Source of the DNA: Gracilariopsis chorda
Lineage: Eukaryota; Rhodophyta; Florideophyceae; Gracilariales; Gracilariaceae
NCBI GenBank assembly: GCA_003194525.1
Contig: NBIV01000376.1
Location: forward strand, 1-47,108
DNA length: 47,108 nt
Direction: 5' to 3'
Part shown: one piece after another, positions 3,246-46,620 of the stretch
How the letters are laid out: the number at the start of each line of letters is the position of its first letter
How positions within the stretch are numbered: position 1 is the first letter of the stretch
The notes under the pieces: model-generated
Databases searched by the model: none
What the model was told of the DNA's origin: nothing
The model's input: only the letters and a program-made list of their open reading frames with translations
Program-made: the position numbers and the translations under genes

Positions 3246-4572
3246 CAGCAGTATGGTGTAGATTACTCTCAAGTCTTTGCATCTGTAGCCAAGTATACCA
3301 CTGTTCGGATGTTGTTGGCTATGATAGTCGATCAGTCTATGTGCTACATGGGATTGGACATAAACGCGGCTTTTCTCTATGGCACACTTGAAGAAGAAGT
3401 CTACATGGAGCAACTCCGTGGTTTTGAAGTTTGCAGCAAGGAAAATCTGGTGTATTGGCTGAAGAAAGCTATTTATGGCTTGAAGCAGGCATCTAGAGCG
3501 TTCCGAAAATTCTTGCACTCTATCCTGCTCAGTCTTGGTGCCGTTGCCTCTTCTGCTGATCCTTCTCTGTATCTACTTCATGATGAGAGCAAGACGGTGA
3601 TTGTGCTTATACTGTACGTCGATGATGTTCTAATCGCTGAAAAAAACCAAGAAGGACGTCCAACACGTTGTCAAAGAGTTATCAAAGCATGTCGAGCTTC
3701 GAATCGAAACGGATGATAGCAAATTATTGGGACTAGTCATTGAAAAGTCTGCTATCGGATCAATTAAGATTCATAATGCTCCATTGATCGAGGATGCTCT
3801 TGAAAGTTTTGGAATGGCGAACTGTATACCTGTTGCCACTCCTATGGTTCCCGGCACAAAGCTTCTGGCTACAGACGTTGATGAGCGACGCACTGATGTC
3901 CCGTATCGTGAAATTATTGGATTGTTATTGCATTTGAGTAACACCTGTAGACCGGACATCTCGTTTGCTGTTGGTTATTTATCTTGCTTTTTGGACAAGT
4001 ACGGAAGTGACCATTGGAAGGCCGCAAAGAGAGTAATTCGTTATCTTAAGGGTACAAAGTATATGGGACTCGTGTACAAGAAGACAGATGGCCTTTTGGT
4101 AGGCTATAGTGACGCGGATTTTGCTGGTGATGTATGTGATCGCAAATCGACAAGTGGATTTGGATTTATCCTTTCTTGAGCAACAATTTCATGGAGATCT
4201 AAGAAGCAATCGATTTTTGCACAATCAACAGTGAAATCTGAGTATGTGGCGATGGCTTTTGCCATCCGTGAATTTATTTGGCTTCGACAACTAATGAAAG
4301 ATCTACGAATTGGCAATTCTGAGGGTACTGTTATTCATGGAGACAATCAGGGCATGTTGGCCATATCGAATGACAACTTATGCAGTGAGAGAACGAAACA
4401 CATTGACGTTTGGTATCACCTGGTTCGTGACCATGTTGAGAAGAAATCTGTTCAACTGAGCTATCTTCCCAGTTCGTTGTTGTTCGCAGACATTATGACC
4501 AAAGGACTGCCGACAGAAGTTCACAATCGTCATTGTCAAGCTCTGGGTCTCTCAATTACTTCTATGTTATAG
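3246..4572 (+). pseudogene. Ty1/copia pol: reverse transcriptase and RNase H (5' truncated, broken)
   Basis: The sequence opens in the RT palm just before QYGVDYSQVFA. It continues through the LDINAAFLYG and YVDDVLIA catalytic motifs and then through the RNase H region with GYSDADFAGD, DRKSTSGF and DNQGMLAIS. The order matches the C-terminal half of copia polyproteins, where RT and RNase H follow integrase. There are two breaks: a frame change at a run of A at about 3641-3647, and a TGA at 4177-4179 where the family has Trp. The N-terminal part (gag, protease, integrase) is missing because a gypsy element is inserted at 3245; it should lie on the far side of that element. The frame ends at 4570-4572 just ahead of the presumed LTR. 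Confidence 0.85.
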
Positions 4573-4583
4573 AACGAGAGGGT

Positions 4584-5100
4584 ATGTTGACTGGATGCTA
4601 ACGTTAGTCTGTTGACAGTTTGCATGCGTTCTGATATTATAGAATGAATTTTGACTTACGCGATAATATCTTTCTTTACGATAGATAGATATTTGACAAT
4701 AGATTGAATTGTATGCACGATTTGGGCAAAGAACTAAGCTCCAGAATGACTACTTAAGAAGATAAGAGTGCCTTGACGAAGTAAAGAGAGGTATCTAAGT
4801 CGTGATCAAGCTAAACAAACGTTTGGTATTTTCGTGCTTTCTTAGCGCCAAACCTGGTCCCATAATCTCTTAGAGATATAGGTCGACAGTGGTTAGCACA
4901 AGGGGAAAACTGGATAATTAGTGAAACGGTTGTACAGGAGTTCGCTTCTACATTTACTTCTTAGTTTCTACTATCTCGCTTTTATAGTCAGATTTTGTAC
5001 TCTGAATTACGCGAAGAGGATGAAATTATCCTGTTCAGCCGTGATCCGTTTTGGCAGTTACTCTCCATCCATACTCATGTTTGTCCTGTTTGCAAACCTC
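4584..5100 (+). repeat. Probable 3' LTR of the copia element (right end uncertain)
   Basis: Twelve bases after the copia stop codon there is a short purine-rich tract, then TGTTGACTGG, the usual TGTTG start of copia LTRs. The following ~500 bp are AT-rich and non-coding. I could not find a convincing inverted terminal match, so the right boundary is a guess. Bases 5100-5470 hold only a basic 90-codon frame (5160-5429, rich in R and K) that may be the start of the DIRS element's first ORF. Confidence 0.4.
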
Positions 5101-5475
5101 TGAGATGATTGGCCTGCAAACTCTACAGTCGTAAGTAAAATGCCTATCGCTTATCTTAGATGAAAAACTACTGCATGCACATTTTTCATCAAACAGCAAG
5201 GATCGTGCATGGCGCCTTGTGTGCGCATTTGCGCTTTCCAGGGGGGATCGCCACATTCATGAATGTTCATCATAACATCAGGGTTCCAGCCATGCAATCA
5301 AACGTAAACCGTCAAATGTCGGCAGCATTGCGAGCGAGGAATGCAGTCCGCAGTCTAGTGAAACGACACCGCCCTGTCCCTCAAAAGGCAAGGTGTGCCA
5401 GAGTAAGCTCAGCAGTGAACGGAAAGTAGAATCAGAAGCAATACAGCATCAAGGAAGGCCGCGCACCTTTCCCTC

Positions 5476-6996
5476 TTGCCCTTCTTCAGAAAAGGAAGCA
5501 CATCACAGTCTCCGCATGACACTGTCTCCGCTTGCCTTGAAGCTCTTGACTTCCTGTTTTTAGGACATCATGCCTTTAAAAACCCCACCAGTGAGTCTCG
5601 GGCGCAGACCATAGCTGCCGTGCGTTCTATTTTGAAAAGAAGCTGTGATTTAACTACAGATCATTCACCAGGTATTCAAGATGTTATTGTGCCAAGCATA
5701 CCGCGCTCTCCAGCGCCCCAAAGCGATACCAAGGTGTCACATTCAAAAGATGCACTTGACTTTCTTGAGCACCTGAAATCAAATGGAATGGTTCGAGGCG
5801 AGTTCACCCTTCTGACCGCCGAACGCCTAGATCTCCCTTTGAAAACCGCATCCGATGCCAGATTCTGGCTCAAGCGAATGCCTCAAAGCGTGCAGCGCAC
5901 ACTAAACGGTGCTGATTTCAATCAGATGGTACAGGGCATGAAATCCTACGTCCTGTCCTCCCCCGTTCCCCCATCCAAAGGTCATTGCGTACTCGGGCAG
6001 TATCCTAAATTGCTGCTCCGTCTTTCAACGTCTGAAATGTTGCATTGATATGCAGTAGACAATGAGGACAGTAGCTACACTCACCTTGCTGACAAGATCA
6101 CCATGACTTCTTTTGCAGTTGTCAAGGACAGAGATAGAGACCGGCTAATCAGCTGGCCTCGGGTTCAGAATCTTTCCATGCCAGAGCCGCCACATGTATT
6201 TCTTCCCAATTCAGGGCAATTTCGATCTGTTACAGTATCAACTAATACGCCTAAATTGTCTGGTTTCTATTTGGATGTGGCCAATATGTTTCACAACATT
6301 CGGCTACCCACCCAGCTCGCTCTCTTCTTCCCCCTCAAATGTATCGCATTTAGAGACCTCCCCAGAACGCTGCAGAAAGAAATACAGAACAATTTGGGAT
6401 TCAGACCCAGGCAAAGCCAGAAGCTTCGGCCGTGTCAGAGTACTTTGCCCATGGGTCTTAAGTGGTCGGTATTCATCGGCCATACCTTCGTGAAGTCCTG
6501 CTATATGGAAGCGTTCCCCATTTTCAAAGCAAAATCGCAAGTACTTGGCTCCAAGTTCACCTTCCCCGCTCAAATCTTGTTGCACAGACATGAACGGGTT
6601 GCCGAGTTAACCAACCATGCAGTCGTCGTCCTTCATATTACAGACGATTTGAATCTCGCTCTTCCCGGACGGCCCAAAGAGCAGGCTACTAGGCCCCAAA
6701 GTACCATTGAGTCCGTACTAGAAGCCAATGAGCCGCCAATTAAGCGGGCCAGTTCATCCCCTCTAGGAACGCTAGAGTTGAATCAACTACCATTCATAGG
6801 ATGGATATGGTACCTGCGTCAGAATATAATTCGTCCCAAGCTAGAAAAGCTCGTCTCCGCAGGGATAGCGTTTCGAAAGCAATACTGGTACCGCTCAGTG
6901 AATCCGTTATACGATCATCTGTGGGAAAGCTTATCTGGATTGCACTGGGATGTAGACCTTTGCTCTCCGTGCTTTATCGAACTTTCCAATACCTAG
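5476..6996 (+). pseudogene. DIRS-type retrotransposon: gag-like region and reverse transcriptase
   Basis: One frame runs through this block with a single internal TGA at 6046-6048. The first ~190 residues are an unassigned gag-like region. From about 6103 the sequence is an RT of the DIRS/YR class: VVKDRDRDRLISWPR (fingers), FYLDVANMFHNI (motif A), LPMGLKWSVFIGH (motif B, the PMG..W.VF form typical of DIRS elements) and ITDDLNLAL (motif C at about 6640-6648). Motif C has lost the aromatic residue usually present before DD. The frame ends at 6996, but the homology continues in another phase from about 6850 into RNase H, so a frameshift lies at 6850-6900. No clear ATG opens the first part. The element is dead. 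Confidence 0.75.
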
Positions 6997-11190: not shown

Positions 11191-11528
11191 GCGAGGCGTT
11201 GAAGGCTGCACCGACTAGTGCCACCGCCGCTTGATGATTGTTCTGCACCAATAGCAAGGCGGCAACGGACAGTCGTACTGTCGTGGCGTGCCGCATCATC
11301 GCACTCGCAGATAATTGGTCTCTTTCAACCGTAAAGGTAAGGCGCTGTATGCGATCTAAACTTTAACGCTTGAACAAGCTCACGTAACCGTTAGAGCCAC
11401 CAACGGGAATCACGGAGAGATAAGTGTCGCGCCAATTAGCGCGCGGCAGCAAATCATTCTCTCAGAGCAAGTCATTCAAAAAGCGCGGCGAATGGTGCGC
11501 TACATTTGACGGAACGCCCGTCGTCGCA

Positions 11529-12764
11529 ATGCTTTGGCTCACGTTTCTCCTAGCGTTAAGCTCAGCCCGCGTCGTCAGCTCGAGAGCGGTAGTCCCCTGG
11601 CCGCAGCCGGTCGTCTCGGATGAGCCTGTCCTTTCGGAGGATCCCGAATGTCCGGTGGTGCTTCCGATATCATCAAACATTTCACAACTCGTCCTCGGCG
11701 GCCAACTCGTGCAGCACGACGACCTCCTCTTTCACGCATGGCTTAGCTTTACTGACGTTTTTGGCGGAAGCAATTTGTGCAGCGCCACACGGCTCTCGAA
11801 GAACTGGGTGTTAACGGCTGCGCATTGTGACGTTACAACGGCGTGGAGGGTATCGCTGTCCTCACCGTCGGTTGGAGTTGAAAACGGCATCCGTGCGAGT
11901 ATCCAGAGCGTGCATATTCACCCGAACTTCACGTATGGTACTGCGGATCCCTCCGACTATGCGTTGCTTCGCATTGTGCCGCCTCCTTCTGAACAGGGCA
12001 ATGTGCATGTGGTGCGTCTGAATGAGGCACCTTCACTACCTGTTGAGAACGCGTTTGTCCGCGTGTCTGGATATGGTATTTACGAGAACTATGGGGCTCT
12101 AGAACCCACCGCTGGCGAGTTACATTTCGCCGACATTCCAATCCACCCTTTTTCGACTTGCAGCTCCGCTTACGCGTCGCTAATTTCTTCTGGATTGTCG
12201 CCGTTGAAAGCGGATAATCATCTCTGTATGGGCTACGAACTCAACCGGTGCAATGCATGCCGAGGGGATTCAGGGGGTCCAGTGTTGCAGTATGATAAGA
12301 ATGGACGCGCCGTGCAAGTGGGCATCATTACAGCCTCGTACGAATGCGCGCGAACGGGATTTCCGGGCATTGGTTTGCGAGTATCCGCAGCGTTGGCTTG
12401 GATGAGAGAGGTTGGCGCTGTATTTGAGAGCGCTGAGCCCGAGCAGGTGTTCAGAGACCCGGTCACGACGCAGGACGCCATGGCGTCGCACACGCCAAGT
12501 CAGCAACCTGGCTTGGACGGAGCGGACGACAGTGAGGTGATGGAGGCACAGGACGCCATGGCGTCGCACACGCCAAGTCAGCAACCTGGCTTGGACGGAG
12601 TGGATGACAGTGAGGTGATGGGCAGCTCCAAGAGGACAAGCGAATCGTCCGAGGGTAGGTGGATTATTGGTATCTTGACGGTAGTTCTTATAGTGGGTTT
12701 GTTTGTCCTTGTATGGGCTCTCATTTCTTTTCTTGCAGCTCTTCCTAGGCGCCTTGCATCATAA
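11529..12764 (+). CDS. Membrane-anchored trypsin-fold serine protease
   Basis: The protein has 411 residues from the ATG at 11529. The frame is open further upstream, but only this ATG gives a clean signal peptide (MLWLTFLLALSSARVVSS). The peptidase S1 domain follows from about residue 55 (VLGGQLV). Its triad is H99 in TAAHC, D143 in PSDYALL and S248 in GDSGGP. The residue six before the Ser, which sets S1 specificity, is Asn rather than the Asp of trypsin, so Arg/Lys preference is not expected. After the catalytic domain comes a 26-residue segment repeated twice (about 315-366), a Ser-rich stalk and one transmembrane helix (about 378-405) with a short basic tail. The predicted topology is type I, with the protease outside the cell or in the secretory lumen. 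The gene is intact and intronless. Confidence 0.85.
   Translation: MLWLTFLLALSSARVVSSRAVVPWPQPVVSDEPVLSEDPECPVVLPISSNISQLVLGGQLVQHDDLLFHAWLSFTDVFGGSNLCSATRLSKNWVLTAAHCDVTTAWRVSLSSPSVGVENGIRASIQSVHIHPNFTYGTADPSDYALLRIVPPPSEQGNVHVVRLNEAPSLPVENAFVRVSGYGIYENYGALEPTAGELHFADIPIHPFSTCSSAYASLISSGLSPLKADNHLCMGYELNRCNACRGDSGGPVLQYDKNGRAVQVGIITASYECARTGFPGIGLRVSAALAWMREVGAVFESAEPEQVFRDPVTTQDAMASHTPSQQPGLDGADDSEVMEAQDAMASHTPSQQPGLDGVDDSEVMGSSKRTSESSEGRWIIGILTVVLIVGLFVLVWALISFLAALPRRLAS
12471..12626 (+). repeat. In-frame 78-bp tandem duplication in the protease gene
   Basis: Two head-to-tail copies of 78 bp encode QDAMASHTPSQQPGLDG plus an acidic tail. They differ by only a few bases (GCG to GTG and GAC to GAT near the end), so the duplication is recent. 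The copies form the stalk between catalytic domain and membrane helix. A length difference among alleles is likely. Confidence 0.85.
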
Positions 12765-29050: not shown

Positions 29051-30945
29051 TGTTCCGAAGAGTAGACTCGAAGTCCAAAACCAAAACATTTCCACTTCTC
29101 TTATCTCATCATGGTATGGGAATATCAAGAAATTCATTCAAATTGGGCAAGCTCGTCAAGCTGGTCCCAATTCTCACCACAAGAATTGGAAGTGATGACA
29201 GAACTGTACAAAAAATATCTGAGCACAGTCTTAAATGAGAATATATTCCGAGTTGCTTTAGGCGGGAATCTGTACGATATTGATCTTAAGAACCTTATCC
29301 AGAGGAATGTATCGACCATTAAAGTTTGCAAGATCCGCAATAACTGCCATTCTCTCTCCTTAGCGTGCATGTTTGCCGGTGGGTATGGGTATGAATAGGA
29401 ACTACATCTCACGACCTTCATTAGCTGCATGAGTGAATCACGACTGTTTGTTGGTCCAGACCGGGATCCACGTATTGCTCCGATGAGGGAGCTTTCTTTC
29501 CAAGCAATAAAGCAATTGCCACCAGACAGCTGGAACGTAATCTTCATCGCATAAAAGCCGGTTCGTTACTCTACTTTTCACCCAGCTTGTGAGAAAGAAA
29601 GCAAGCGATTAACTTAAATGAGTTCTGGAAATATACGGAGCAGCGCGACCCAATAGAGTCTGCCACAGGTGTAGCGATATACAATCCGACTCTTGATAAT
29701 TGGAATTATAAACGTTTTGGTTCCATGAGTTCCATGCGATTCATTATCAAAGCCGCTGCAATGGCGAAGTATAACATTGGAGTGGACATGGATTTAGCCT
29801 ACCTTCGCAAATTGATATCCAATGAACACGTCGTATCACCTCAGCAATGGTTTCAACGCATGATTGCTCAGGGAGTATTGTTTTTCAACGCTTCACTTAC
29901 TACAGGTGGTTCTAAAACAAACTCAGGCCACACAGAATTCTGGCGTCCTGTGCTCAGATGCATCATTGAACGAATTCTGGTGGCGAAATCTAAATTGCAA
30001 GTATCTGACAAGCCCCGTGGGTTGGTTCTCTGTTGGTGGGGCTCGTCTATGAAGAAAACAAACATTTGCATGGTTTTAAGTAATTATCGGCACTTACCTG
30101 TGCAACAAATCGATTGGTACAATCCCGCGGCTCGAGGTGAGTGGTTCTGCAGGGGATCCCAGCATTTCTCTGTTGTTAACAAGAAAATGGCAGAGCTAGG
30201 AAGGGAACGTATTGATTGGCTTCCGACTGAAATTGAAAGCATAGCAAATAGAAAAGTTCTTGTGCCAGCAGCCTTGAAAGATTTCATGTTGAATACTAAG
30301 CATGGGCACACAACGTATCTTGGCCATCGGCAGGGTAAATAGGAGTTTGAGAAAGACATCCAACCAATAACCGGCATAGGACAAATGCCTTTACAAACCC
30401 TGGATCAGGCGTTCCGCGCATTGAGTGTCAATATAACGGATTATGCTTTGCATAATAAACTTCAGGTTTGGCAAGATTTGGCCCTTAGCAAAGAATAGAA
30501 GGGGGCTGTTTTCGTTTATTCTACAGGTGCAATCCATTTGCAACTGAATGCGGCTATGAGACGAAAGCGATGCAATGCATATTTCCCATTCTTGTCTTTG
30601 TTCTTAAGGGGTCATGACAGCATACCCCCAGCTCCGGAGAGTACGCTGCTATATCGTGGAATACGTCAGAATTTAAGTGGCCTTGTAAGGTGAATCACGT
30701 TTTGAAGTGGTGGGTTATCACAAGTTGCTCATCAAGTAGAGCGATTTCCATGGGTTTTGTAGGGGGAAACGGATCGTTTCATGTGAGGGCGAAAACAGCT
30801 GTGGCAATAAAGCCCTCCTCGTCCGTATCAAGATGAGTACCTGCTGGCACCGGGAACTCGGTTAAAGGTGACGGAAGTGGACCTTAGGAAAGCATATGCG
30901 GAGATCTACGTTGGAGAGATCCCGGGAGAAAAGCTTGTGCGTTAG
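29051..30945 (+). pseudogene. Broken multidomain gene: WWE, uracil-DNA glycosylase-like and ADP-ribosyltransferase-like domains
   Basis: Three domains follow each other on one strand with short spacers. A WWE domain (29111-29341) shows VWEYQEIHSNW, LGGNLYDIDLKN and IQRNVSTIKVCKIRN; this fold binds poly- or iso-ADP-ribose in known families. A family-1 UDG-like domain follows (29400-30240), with a GQDPY-like site (WNVIFIA and, in the next open stretch, QRDPIESATGVA), then GVLFFNASLTTGGSKTN holding the uracil-binding Asn, GLVLCWWGSS, and GSQHFSVVNKKM..RIDW. An ART-like domain (about 30400-30945) shows YSTGAIHLQLNAAMR, LLYRGI (catalytic Arg motif), ITSCSSS (Ser motif) and QDEYLL (Q-x-E in the E-x-E position). 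Breaks are TAG at 29396-29398, TAA at 29552-29554, TGA at 29590-29592, TAG at 30340-30342 and 30496-30498, plus phase changes near 29550, 30690 and 30820. Whether this was one protein or adjacent genes is inference. Confidence 0.65.
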
Positions 30946-42100: not shown

Positions 42101-43455
42101 ATGTCGTCCAACCCGCCGAACATAACGAACCCGCCGGTGTACGCCAGTGAACGAGAGTCCTCCGCAACTCCTGACGCGCTTGAGAGCCTCCAACTCCAGG
42201 CCAACAGGCTCCAGGACATGATTTATGGTGTGCAGACCACTCAAAATGCGCTCCATTCCCTTCTGAACTCGTTCATGAAGGACCACATGGCTACTTCAGA
42301 CGACATCAAACGTGCGTTCGGCATCTATGCACAGGACCTCGAAAAGCTCAAAGACGACTTTTCTACGCTGATGGCACTTCTCCGGAACTCACAGGCCGCC
42401 CCACAACCCGTGGACATACATCCTGCCACACGAAGCCCACACACGCCACCCTAACCCGTGACTTCCCCGAACATGCGAACATATCCCCTCCGTCGGCCCC
42501 GGCTTTGAGTGTGCGTTCAATGCCGCCACTGCCACCCAACTCTACCCTACCCCCAACGGGCAACAAGGGACGACCGTCGTTGGCATCACTCGTTAAAACC
42601 GCCGCACCGGAAGCATTCAGTGGCAAAGCAGATGAACGCTCTTCGATCCGTATTCGCAGATTTATCGCATCTATACGCCGTACGATGCGTGTGGCAGGTG
42701 TGGAGCACCACCACGAGATGGTGGATGTCGCCAAGTGCTTTCTGAAAGGAGCGGCGAGTACCTGGATTAACCGAGAAGAGGCACAAGGCACTGAATTTTC
42801 CAACCTCGACGCATTGGAAAAGGCCTTAATCGAGGAGTATGTCCCCGATAACGAAGACGCCCAAGCACGTTCGAAGCTCATGCGTCTTCAATTCAAGTCC
42901 AACTTGGAGCGCCACATCTCCCAGTTTCGTGACCTCATTGAACTCTGCGGACCCCATCCTGGCGACGCCTACAACTATTTCTTCATGAGCCTACCTGACG
43001 AGTACAAGGCAGAGCTCGCTCAGCGTTTTCCCAAGGGCTCTACGGACCTGAAGGCCGTCTACAATTTCGTGCGTAACCTCGAAGTCGCACAGTCCTGGCG
43101 GGCACCATCCGCCCAACCCCCACGCCGTCGATCATCCAATGGGTTCCCCCGCACATCATCCAGACACACCGGCGCCACCAACTCTCGCACAACTACCCCC
43201 AACATGACCCAGCAGCCACTTCATGGGGCCCGTGCGACAAGTCTAACGCACTGGAACGCCAACGCTACCGGTCGAGCGATCGCTGCATGGCATGCGGAGG
43301 CGAAGGTTGGAGCAAACCAACCCATGTCTGCGACCTCACCGCCAAAGACAGCGCCGGAAAGCCAAAAAACTAACGCCGCCGCCTTGGAAGGCGGCGAGCC
43401 CCCTGGGTACCGATCCCCATTTTCTATTGCGCCTCACAGGACTCGAATCAGATGA
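42101..43455 (+). pseudogene. Gag of the young gypsy element (frame interrupted)
   Basis: The ATG at 42101 lies 91 bp after the LTR. The first 117 codons contain a long amphipathic stretch (LESLQLQANRLQDMIYGVQ onwards) that looks like a coiled coil, and end at 42454. The frame continues in another phase from 42424 with a Ty3-type gag core: APEAFSGKADERSSIRIRRF, FLKGAASTWINREEAQGTEF and LQFKSNLERHISQFRDLIEL. A cysteine-rich knuckle-like motif (CMACGGEGWSKPTHVC, about 43284-43331) is in a third phase, so a second shift lies near 43.2 kb. Gag forms the virus-like particle in which the element is reverse transcribed. Confidence 0.8.
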
Positions 43456-45330
43456 TACGGAGTTCCATTATGATGCATTTCTCAATAATTTTAACGTGGT
43501 GGCAAATATAGATCCGGGCGCGTCACACGCATTTGTGTCGCCCGTGACTGCCGCCGCGTGTGGCCTCTCGGTTACACCAGTGACCGACGCATATGTTGAG
43601 CTGGGAAATGGACAACGCATCCCCGTTCAAGGTTCCGTGCAGGCCCCTCTGCGGCTGGGCACTTCGGACCACCTTTTGTCGGCTTTTGTAATTGACATGC
43701 CAGACGATATGGACGCCCGGCCTTACATCATCGTTGGCCGCCAGTGGCTGCGCGCATGCGCACCACAGATCTGCTGGAGTACTGGGGACTTACTGCTAAG
43801 GGGCCCTGAAGGGACACAACGGCGGATTCACACCCGACAGCGACCTCGATCCAGGCGTCCACCGGGACTTACCTTCAAACTGATCTCTTGGAAGCGTGCC
43901 GCTCGCTGTCTCACACACAAACACAAAGGCTGTGAGCTGTTCGCCATCAAGCTCCGCCCGGAGGTACTGACAGGATCCACACATCCTAACATCCTTCCAC
44001 TAGTGGAGGAATTCGCCGATATCTTCCGATCCGAACTTCCACATGAACTACCCCCAACACGCGCGATGGACTTCGCTATTCCCCTCAAGTCCAATATTCC
44101 CCCACCAGTGCGACCGGTAATCCGTCTTTCGGCAGAGGAGCTTCAAGAGCTAAGGCGTACCCTCCACGAACTCCTAGACAGAGGCTATCTTCGCCCCTCG
44201 ACTTCACCATACGGCGCCCAGTTTTCTTCGTCAAGAAAAAGAACGGCGAGCTTCGTCTGGTCTGCGACTACAGGGCTCTCAACCGCATTACCATTCCAGA
44301 TGCCACCCCGCTGCACTCATCGAAGAGGCTTTTGATCAACTCGCAGGCGCAACCGTTTTTTCGCAGATTGACCTCGTCGGCGCATACCATCAGATGCGCA
44401 TCCGCGACGAGGATTGCCACAAAACGCAATACGAACACGTTATGGTTCATTCGAATGGACCGTTCTTTGTTTTGGCTTAACAAACGCGCCGGCTGCCTTC
44501 TCCCGACTCCTCGCATCCCTGCTTCGCGATCTCAATGGGCGATCCCTCATTCTTTACTTGGACGACATCTTGGTATACAGCCGCAACATGGAGGAGCACC
44601 AAGCTCATTTACGGGAGCTATTCACCATCATGCGTAGGGAAAAACTGTACATTCACCCTACAAAGTCCCATTTCGGAGTAGCCGAAGTCGACTTTTTGGG
44701 CCACAGGGTCTCCTCTGCGGGTATTCAAACCCAAAGCCGCCTAGTTGATGCGGTAAGAAACTGGCCCACTCCCACCTCAACCAAAGAAGTCCAACAATTC
44801 GTCGGACTAGCCAACTACTATCGCCGCTTCGTAAAGGCCTACGCGGACATCATGCGCCCAATCACGGACTTATTACGCCGCGAGGCGTTCAACTGGACAG
44901 CGGCACAAGCCGAAGCATTCCGTGCTATCAAACAAGCCCTCACTGCCGCTCCGGTCCTCGCACTACCTGCCGCGACAAGACGTTCGTTGTGTCCACAGAT
45001 GCATCACAACACGCCGTCGGCGCCACTCTGGAACAAGATGAACACCCAGTTGCGTACCTATCCCATCGCCTATCTCCAGCAGAGTCACGCTGGGACACCG
45101 GGGACCAGGAGCTACTCGGGTTCATTATCGCCTTGCGTAATTGGAGCCACTACCTCAGGGGAAGACGTTTCATCTTCGCACGGACCACCGCCCATTGCAG
45201 TATCTCCAGTCCAAGGCCACTCTCTCCGGCAGGCAATGCCGGTGGCTAGATTTACTTCAAGAACACTCCTTTGAAGTACAACACGTCTCTGGCCTTCGAA
45301 CACGGTCCCAGATGCCTTGAGCCGCCGCCC
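43292..45330 (+). pseudogene. Protease, reverse transcriptase and RNase H of the young gypsy element
   Basis: The aspartic protease shows ANIDPGASHAFVS (active site DPGA instead of the usual DTGA/DSGA) and YIIVGRQWL. The RT follows with VIRLSAEELQELRRTLHELL, the FEWTVLCFGLTNAPAAFSRL block and ILYLDDILVYSRN, where the catalytic YLDD is at 44555-44566. Next are KSHFGVAEVDFLGHRVS and the connection FVGLANYYRRFVKAYADIMR. RNase H has STDASQHAVGATL, GDQELLGFIIAL and, in another phase, the last catalytic Asp in a TDHRPL context. At least four frame changes occur, near 44218, 44340-44430, 44978 and 45179. At several of them a C or G run is one base shorter than the frame requires. Confidence 0.85.
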
Positions 45331-45399
45331 AGACCACCTTGCGGGAACCCTTGCCCGATTGATGATCAGTGTACAACCTTCCTCCAGCGCATTCGAGGT

Positions 45400-46620
45400 G
45401 CATATGAGCAGGATCGTGGGCCAAAGAGATGATCACCGCCTACAACGCCCACAAGATGCTCCCCCCCAGGATACAACGCCAACGCGCTCTGTTTTCCTTC
45501 GACAACTCCTTGCTTCGTTGGATTGGATTTCAATCCTCCCGGCTATATATCCCAAGCTCCGCCGTCTGCGACGAGATGTCGCGTTTCATTTTCACGGCTT
45601 GGGCCACTCGGTGCCGACAAGACGTTTTCCGCGCACACCGCTACGTCTACTGGCCAACATGTACCGAGACATTGTAGGGTTCCTGGCTGCTTGTCATCAA
45701 TGCCAGACAAACAAACACTCCAATCGCATCCCAGCAGCCCCCCTTCAAACCGCTCCCGATCCCCAACGAGTGCTGGGAGGTTATAGCGGTCGATTTTCTA
45801 TCAGAACTACCTCGCTCCGTCAACGGGAGGACATGATCATCGTCATCGTGGACAAGCTCTCCAAAACGAGGCATCTTCGTTCCGGCATCTAAGACGGCCA
45901 CCGCGGTGGATGTTGCTCAGGTCTTCACTGATTTGGTCTTTGCGAGACACGGGGTTCCACAGACTATCATCTCTGACCGCGATGGTAAGTTCACCTCCGC
46001 CTTCTGGCAAGAACTACAGCGCATCTACAACGTCAAACTCAACATCGCCACGACCGGACACCCTCAGACCGACGGCCAGACAGAGAACCTGATCCGCACC
46101 GTCTCATCTATGCTCCGCTCCAACATCCAATCGTCTCCGCATAACTGGGATACACTTCTCAGCGTGTTTGAGTACGAATACAACGCCGCCAAACATCACT
46201 CCACGCAGTTCTCGCCTTCGAGATCGATCTTGGACGCGTACCACCTCACACGCAGCACGCGAGATAATCTTACAACTCTCTTTTCCAGAAAGCTACCGAT
46301 TACGCCACACAGCGTGAAGCGTTCCGCCTCGCAACACGCGACAACCTCCTTTGCGCTCAGGAACGCCAGAGGTTCTACGCGGACCTCCGAAGATCCCCCG
46401 TGTCTTTTTCGCCCGGGGACTTAGTTCTTTTACAGGTTGCTGGCTCTCTATAGAAAGGCGCACGGATTGCCGCAGAAATGGAGGCCTAAATTTGTCGGCC
46501 CTCTCCGGATCCTCGGGAAGATCGGCCCGTAGCATACCGTCTGGAACTTCCTCCCGATATGAAGAAGGCACATAACGTATTCAATGTCGACAGAATACGC
46601 CGCTATACCCGGATGATACT
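45400..46620 (+). pseudogene. Integrase of the young gypsy element
   Basis: The zinc-binding HHCC module is visible as FHFHGLGH followed by YRDIVGFLAACHQCQTNKHS. The DDE core starts with a VIAVDFL-type strand near 45785 in a separate phase. It continues with IVIVDKLSKTRHL, HGVPQTIISDRDGKFTSAFW (second Asp) and TTGHPQTDGQTENLIRTVSS (Glu). A GPY/F-like module lies near 46470-46560 in yet another phase. Phase changes occur near 45770, 45828, 45880 and after 46230. The order protease-RT-RNase H-integrase-chromodomain is that of chromoviruses. Confidence 0.8.

Follow-up and report, generated by a model that had tools for sequence, protein, structure and literature searches.

A decayed WWE–UDG–ART gene in the red alga Gracilariopsis chorda and a protein family that may direct ADP-ribosylation through a uracil-DNA glycosylase-like fold

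The window analysed here, a 47,108-nt stretch of the red alga Gracilariopsis chorda (contig NBIV01000376.1, forward strand; contig C376 of the 91-Mb, 1081-contig genome G000), carries at 29111..30945 (+), from an in-frame ATG to a terminal stop, a pseudogene of a gene that encoded a WWE domain, a uracil-DNA glycosylase (UDG)-like domain and an ADP-ribosyltransferase (ART) domain. An intact paralogue in the same genome, together with bacterial UDG–ART genes that adjoin a macrodomain gene in most of the loci sampled, gives a hint of a reversible ADP-ribosylation system not described so far. Judged from sequence, the chances are about even that UDG–ART is a nucleic-acid-guided mono-ADP-ribosyltransferase with a macrodomain as its eraser.

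The original prediction had placed a broken gene with WWE, UDG and ART domains, in this order on one strand, at 29051..30945. These limits proved nearly exact, and both the order and the decay were borne out. The WWE domain (29111..29338, +) was recognised by PF02825 in a search of window positions 29066-29395 (E = 4.2e-7, 30.7 bits against a curated cut-off of 21.1), and by a family search of the own genome (E = 4.3e-5). The UDG-fold domain (29345..30237, +, ends approximate) is interrupted by a putative intron, and its motif A region is destroyed by a stop at 29552; positions 29593-30339 matched uracil-DNA glycosylases in the PDB (3tr7, E = 3.7e-9) and the NCBIfam ung models (best E = 3.2e-8, under their cut-offs), while a Pfam scan of the same segment listed no UDG model. 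Remains of the ART domain, located by blastp against 121 family proteins, are spread over three frames at 30502..30942 (+, ends approximate). A Pfam scan of these three fragments by themselves gave no ART match; all three align colinearly with the ART part of relatives (best E of about 1e-13, 1e-9 and 3e-8), and a read-through match to protein P0004 spans 29653-30939 (E = 1.4e-70). When the gene was cut at stops and frame changes into seven fragments, six matched the 121 family proteins in order under default blastp settings (E = 2.7e-8 or better), and the seventh, a short 'mid' piece, matched weakly (best E = 0.002); with blastp-short settings the WWE and 'mid' fragments had no match at E up to 0.01.

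The lesions comprise four in-frame stops, namely TAG at 29396..29398, TAA at 29552..29554 inside the motif A stretch, TAG at 30340..30342 in the UDG/ART linker and TAG at 30496..30498 near the ART start (all +), and two frameshifts in the ART part, at about 30681-30708 and about 30810-30830 (+). We rejected the idea that every frame change is a lesion, since one falls on an intron common to the paralogue: the change of frame after 29551 is best read as a putative 83-nt GT...AG intron (29561..29643, +), at the site where the paralogue has a 93-nt phase-0 GT–AG stretch without a stop, which likewise separates the QNP and YPR codons. The 31 residues encoded by the paralogue's intron are missing from other family members; the database protein P0002 keeps them as coding. 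The common intron site suggests that both copies would have descended from one intron-bearing eukaryotic gene. Their UDG parts have about 44% of residues in common, which points to an ancient duplication or a long decay of the window copy; for comparison, the algal protein and P0004 share 45%. Given its stops and lost motif A, the window copy can hardly make a working protein.

The intact paralogue lies on contig C131 (matches at 90786-92693) as a single open reading frame (ORF) of 697 aa (L002:718-2808), or 637 codons, intron included, counted from the ATG where the WWE domain starts. All three domains are present: WWE (E = 4.3e-11, 43.5 bits against a cut-off of 21.1), UDG (NCBIfam, E = 1.3e-14, under cut-off) and ART (PF01129, E = 1.6e-7, 31.3 bits against a cut-off of 22.3). 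PF00644, the PARP catalytic domain, was not listed for it at E up to 10. Because this single ORF joins WWE, UDG and ART within the same genome, the three-domain order in the window is more than chance, and separate chance ORFs are ruled out. Six-frame searches of the genome found two copies of the WWE–UDG–ART gene only, and two WWE domains only, as well as a canonical ung on contig C193 (268 bits against a cut-off of 185.75). Roughly 6 kb from the paralogue, C131 carries another gene with three homologues in all, at 87%, 61% (Gracilaria domingensis) and 53% (a transcriptome); this one gene is in keeping with a red algal host close to Gracilaria. According to a passage of PMC4245714, red algae were first thought to have no PARP, and Chondrus crispus has one.

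Of 8000 scored candidates in a search with the intact protein, 956 matched at E = 0.001 or better. In the best 120 of the 956, precomputed Pfam annotation gave PF01129 in 119, vWA in 14, WWE in five, a macrodomain in two and SAP in one; Pfam reports no DarT domain in the family proteins examined. The linkage of the domains, which the prediction would have given up had WWE or ART failed to match or had the domains always been encoded separately, is therefore a property of intact relatives, and the Asn-motif pattern of UDG was matched by all 121 family proteins collected. Entries with a named organism among the best 120 are bacterial, Streptomyces, Nonomuraea, Micromonospora, Dactylosporangium, Sandaracinus (P0042, 520 aa) and a Gemmataceae metagenome-assembled genome among them, and three are eukaryotic (EukProt) transcripts. 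Their database names, 'uracil DNA glycosylase' or 'ADP-ribosyltransferase domain-containing protein', each describe half of the protein, and in open-licence PMC text, judged from title and abstract start, we recognised no description of a UDG–ART or WWE–UDG–ART protein. In a tree of 47 hand-chosen rows, built by a quick method with SH-aLRT support only and leaving root and direction of transfer not resolved, the smallest starred set holding all six WWE rows had 11 rows (98), and the six rows with a bacterial name fell within a group of 26 (100). Intact relatives had also been expected in large DNA viruses. This expectation failed, as all 29 viral loci (IMG/VR) matched the UDG part only (query residues 136-402; one scan, one collection), and the BFVD rows shown carried UDG, ART or other names and none was shown as a UDG plus ART fusion. 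A giant-virus origin is thus not supported, although fusions of distant sequence may escape a pattern scan.

Several relatives carry further modules. Fusions of vWA, UDG and ART of about 1040 aa include P0013, P0016, P0019, P0021, P0023 and nine more, those at loci L003, L004, L005 and L032 being non-actinobacterial. In P0074, which has no Pfam ART, two GQTPYPR motifs come after a SAP domain and apparently mark a pair of UDG-like domains. By eye, the UDG–ART proteins P0029, P0041, P0046, P0058 (EukProt) and P0094 share an unassigned N-terminal stretch of about 90 aa instead of WWE. A further uncharacterised domain, found at the N-termini of P0005 and P0006 and in the stand-alone P0125-P0131, possibly has an AAG-like (alkyladenine DNA glycosylase) fold.

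Active-site motifs were read from a 56-row alignment (A2), obtained by selecting 65 of the 121 proteins by diversity and length and then removing nine rows that were long fusions or otherwise odd. Invariant columns numbered 41 of 265 in the UDG part (mean entropy 1.25) and 24 of 190 in the ART part (mean entropy 1.60). Motif A reads GQ(N/S/A)P(Y/F)PR, with E for Q in one row; at the position of the catalytic Asp of family 1 UDG (GQDPYH) stands Asn in 45 rows, Ser in seven, Ala in four and Asp in none, and the Tyr/Phe is kept in all 56. Across the 121 proteins we read 118 occurrences of motif A, none with Asp, while four proteins gave no reading owing to an intron or a missing N-terminus. The uracil-reading Asn (of LLLNA), part of the predicted pocket motif, is present in every row. 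The HPSPLS site of Ung (motif B) appears as HxNPAA, with His in 52 of 56 rows and Ala at the position of the intercalating Leu; Trp replaces this His in P0096 and in P0001-P0003, which comprise the algal copy and its nearest relatives. Met, His or Leu stands where the aligned UNG has Phe. In the ART part, R513, S536, E576 and E578 of the R-S-E-x-E motif are each invariant, so that the R and S of the original prediction hold for the family and its Q-x-E is confined to the decayed copy; the nearest folds of this domain are Tre1 and ART2.2. The nearest solved UDG is the Nitratifractor salsuginis UNG (5x3g; an assignment to Bradyrhizobium was rejected), which has GQDPYPR and shares PYPR..ESA.G with the family. 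The UDG part accordingly looks like an Asp-less relative of that UNG subclass.

We then considered gene neighbourhoods in bacteria, using the best 80 of 233 relatives from one-per-species genomes. A macrodomain homologue lay directly upstream of UDG–ART in 75 of the 80 loci (tblastn with one macrodomain query, same on repeat), all of them from Actinomycetota, on the opposite strand in 40 and on the same strand in 35; Pfam Macro was confirmed in both neighbours scanned (E = 4.4e-11 and 6.1e-9). The five loci without it are the five non-actinobacterial ones, of which two sit on contigs of just 4.5 and 7.3 kb and four have the vWA fusion. Rough ORF clustering, which caught the macrodomain in 39 loci only, found no other flanking family in more than 8 of the 80. 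Macrodomain and UDG–ART are fused in P0081 and P0113, and a 923-aa open frame in genome G436 covers both matches. The occurrence of both orientations and of fusions suggests that the pair is kept together, though the species are related. Among 198 sampled genomes of the seed's phylum (E up to 1e-30), both genes were found, adjacent, in the same two, one being the seed G251, and neither was found alone; this co-occurrence amounts to one independent case.

Matches of six macrodomain sequences to the PDB were weak only (best DR_2288, E = 0.0055), and none was named DarG or SCO6735. Identity with Streptomyces coelicolor SCO6735 is thus not supported by these six weak matches, S. coelicolor itself not having been checked. 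As a second candidate we considered the arginine-specific MavL type, for which a passage of PMC10951314 gives the motif WDxx[S/A]xPGN, and set it aside when this motif was not seen by eye in the printed macrodomain sequences.

The same macrodomain type was present in all six genomes comprising those of the five non-actinobacterial loci and one actinobacterium, several holding multiple copies. A WGR–PARP-type gene is followed within about 60 bp by one such copy in each of G001, G002 and G003; the first two of these genomes are similar and perhaps not independent of each other. At locus L154 the gene before the macrodomain is WGR–PARP_reg–PARP by Pfam (4396-6479; also L151 and L117), a possible PARP–eraser pair, and the genes of the other two genomes are 82-84% identical to it. 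The macrodomain copies fetched from G004 and G005 had no PARP match beside them. A search for PF00644 was positive in 3 of 20 genomes, exactly G001-G003, and negative in G004, G005 and 15 actinobacterial carriers.

Apparently constrained pockets, an altered excision motif, a kept base-reading Asn, an intact ART motif and a macrodomain found beside a PARP elsewhere make a base- or lesion-directed writer the simplest account of these data, to which the added ADP-ribose modules of relatives, and perhaps their second glycosylase modules, also point. The UDG-fold pocket, with Asn kept and Asp replaced by Asn, Ser or Ala, would bind a flipped-out base or lesion; the ART domain would then ADP-ribosylate a nearby target, most likely a protein arginine; the companion macrodomain would take the mark off; and in eukaryotes WWE might bind ADP-ribose, whether produced by this enzyme or by another. 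In bacteria without a PARP found, the UDG–ART module would stand in for a DNA-damage PARP. A putative enzyme of repair or nucleic-acid defence coupled to ADP-ribosylation, as originally envisaged, fits the gene neighbourhoods. The ADP-ribosylation known to occur at damaged DNA involves PARPs whose sensors are zinc fingers or WGR domains. More tentatively, and as a possibility rather than an expectation, we propose a PARP-independent nucleic-acid-response pathway, extending from actinobacteria to algae and replacing PARP where there is none, in which DNA-glycosylase folds (UDG, in some relatives perhaps AAG-like) serve as base or lesion sensors directing ADP-ribosylation, with UDG–ART as writer, the macrodomain as eraser and WWE as eukaryotic reader. 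If true, a base-recognition fold with an ART and a macrodomain neighbour would be a solution separate from PARPs, and one testable in bacteria, as no PARP turned up in any of the 15 actinobacterial carriers searched.

A number of observations weigh against a base- or lesion-directed writer with its own eraser. The 75 linked loci, all from Actinomycetota, are not independent, and 153 of the 233 relatives fell outside the neighbourhood sample. The macrodomain may serve PARP only in genomes with WGR–PARP, and even there second copies (G003:C13, G002:C239) are not beside a PARP. None of 14 control genomes was positive for PF00644, so that G001-G003 are the sole positive controls for the blanks in this search. 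Protein and PF01661 searches of G000 (six-frame, intron-limited) found no macrodomain, which leaves the writer–eraser pairing conjectural for the alga, and in the algal lineage the motif B His is Trp. Other active UDG families carry Asn or Ala at the catalytic Asp position, and loss of excision is therefore not proven. Finally, the predicted model of the AAG-like domain has a mean pLDDT of only 46.

That excision point opens the way to a bifunctional repair enzyme, whose UDG part would still excise a base before the ART modifies either the abasic site or a protein of repair. SMUG and TDG excise bases with Asn at the same site, and the pocket Asn and motif A Tyr/Phe (56/56 rows each), the motif B His (52/56) and the PYPR..ESA.G shared with 5x3g are as such an enzyme would have them. 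We nevertheless consider it unlikely, given that the catalytic Asp is absent from all 56 rows, that both the replacement of the UNG Phe by Met, His or Leu and that of HPSPLS by HxNPAA alter excision and intercalation motifs, and that the host has its own ung.

The macrodomain neighbour in 75 of 80 loci would equally suit a toxin–antitoxin or phage-defence pair like DarTG, with UDG–ART as toxin and macrodomain as antitoxin, as would the sporadic distribution of both genes in the same 2 of 198 genomes. Such a pair is improbable in view of the frequent divergent arrangement (40 of 75), the lack of other recurrent flanking families in the rough clustering, the absence of PADLOC matches among six proteins and the persistence of an intact gene in an alga with no detectable macrodomain. 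Least probable, and in our view a long shot, is ADP-ribosylation of the nucleic acid itself, with the ART modifying a flipped-out base offered by the UDG pocket, as DarT modifies thymidine. A base-flipping fold fused to an ART would be apt for this, and passages of PMC9411070 and PMC13036486 describe macrodomain erasers of thymidine- and uracil-linked ADP-ribose; the R-S-E-x-E motif and nearest folds, however, point to protein arginine, and the six macrodomains had only weak PDB matches, without DarG or SCO6735.

Elsewhere in the window, coding parts of a Ty3-type long terminal repeat retrotransposon lie at 42505..46421 (+), namely gag, protease, reverse transcriptase and integrase, of which reverse transcriptase and gag exceed Pfam cut-offs and several other matches fall below them. 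A 446-aa ORF with a trypsin domain (11424-12761, E = 2.7e-33) contains a 78-bp tandem repeat with 97% matches at 12471-12621.

Set beside known systems, UDG–ART resembles DarTG in its nucleic-acid link and in the pairing of an ART with a macrodomain gene, seen in bacteria and not found in the alga, and differs from it in combining a PF01129 ART of the R-S-E-x-E type, in place of a DarT domain, with a UDG-fold domain, and perhaps also in its macrodomain, whose weak PDB matches leave a DarG/TARG1 type doubtful. With PARP1/2/3 and bacterial WGR–PARP it shares the joining of a DNA-binding module to an ART, and with the latter, in three genomes, the macrodomain type that follows; here, however, a UDG fold takes the place of WGR and an R-S-E ART that of the PARP catalytic domain. 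Family 1 UDG, with 5x3g as its nearest member, has the same fold and uracil-reading Asn, but retains the motif A Asp and HPSPLS and lacks the ART fusion. From the arginine mono-ADP-ribosyltransferases ART2.2, Tre1 and HopU1, the family is set apart by the fusion of its ART behind a UDG-like domain.
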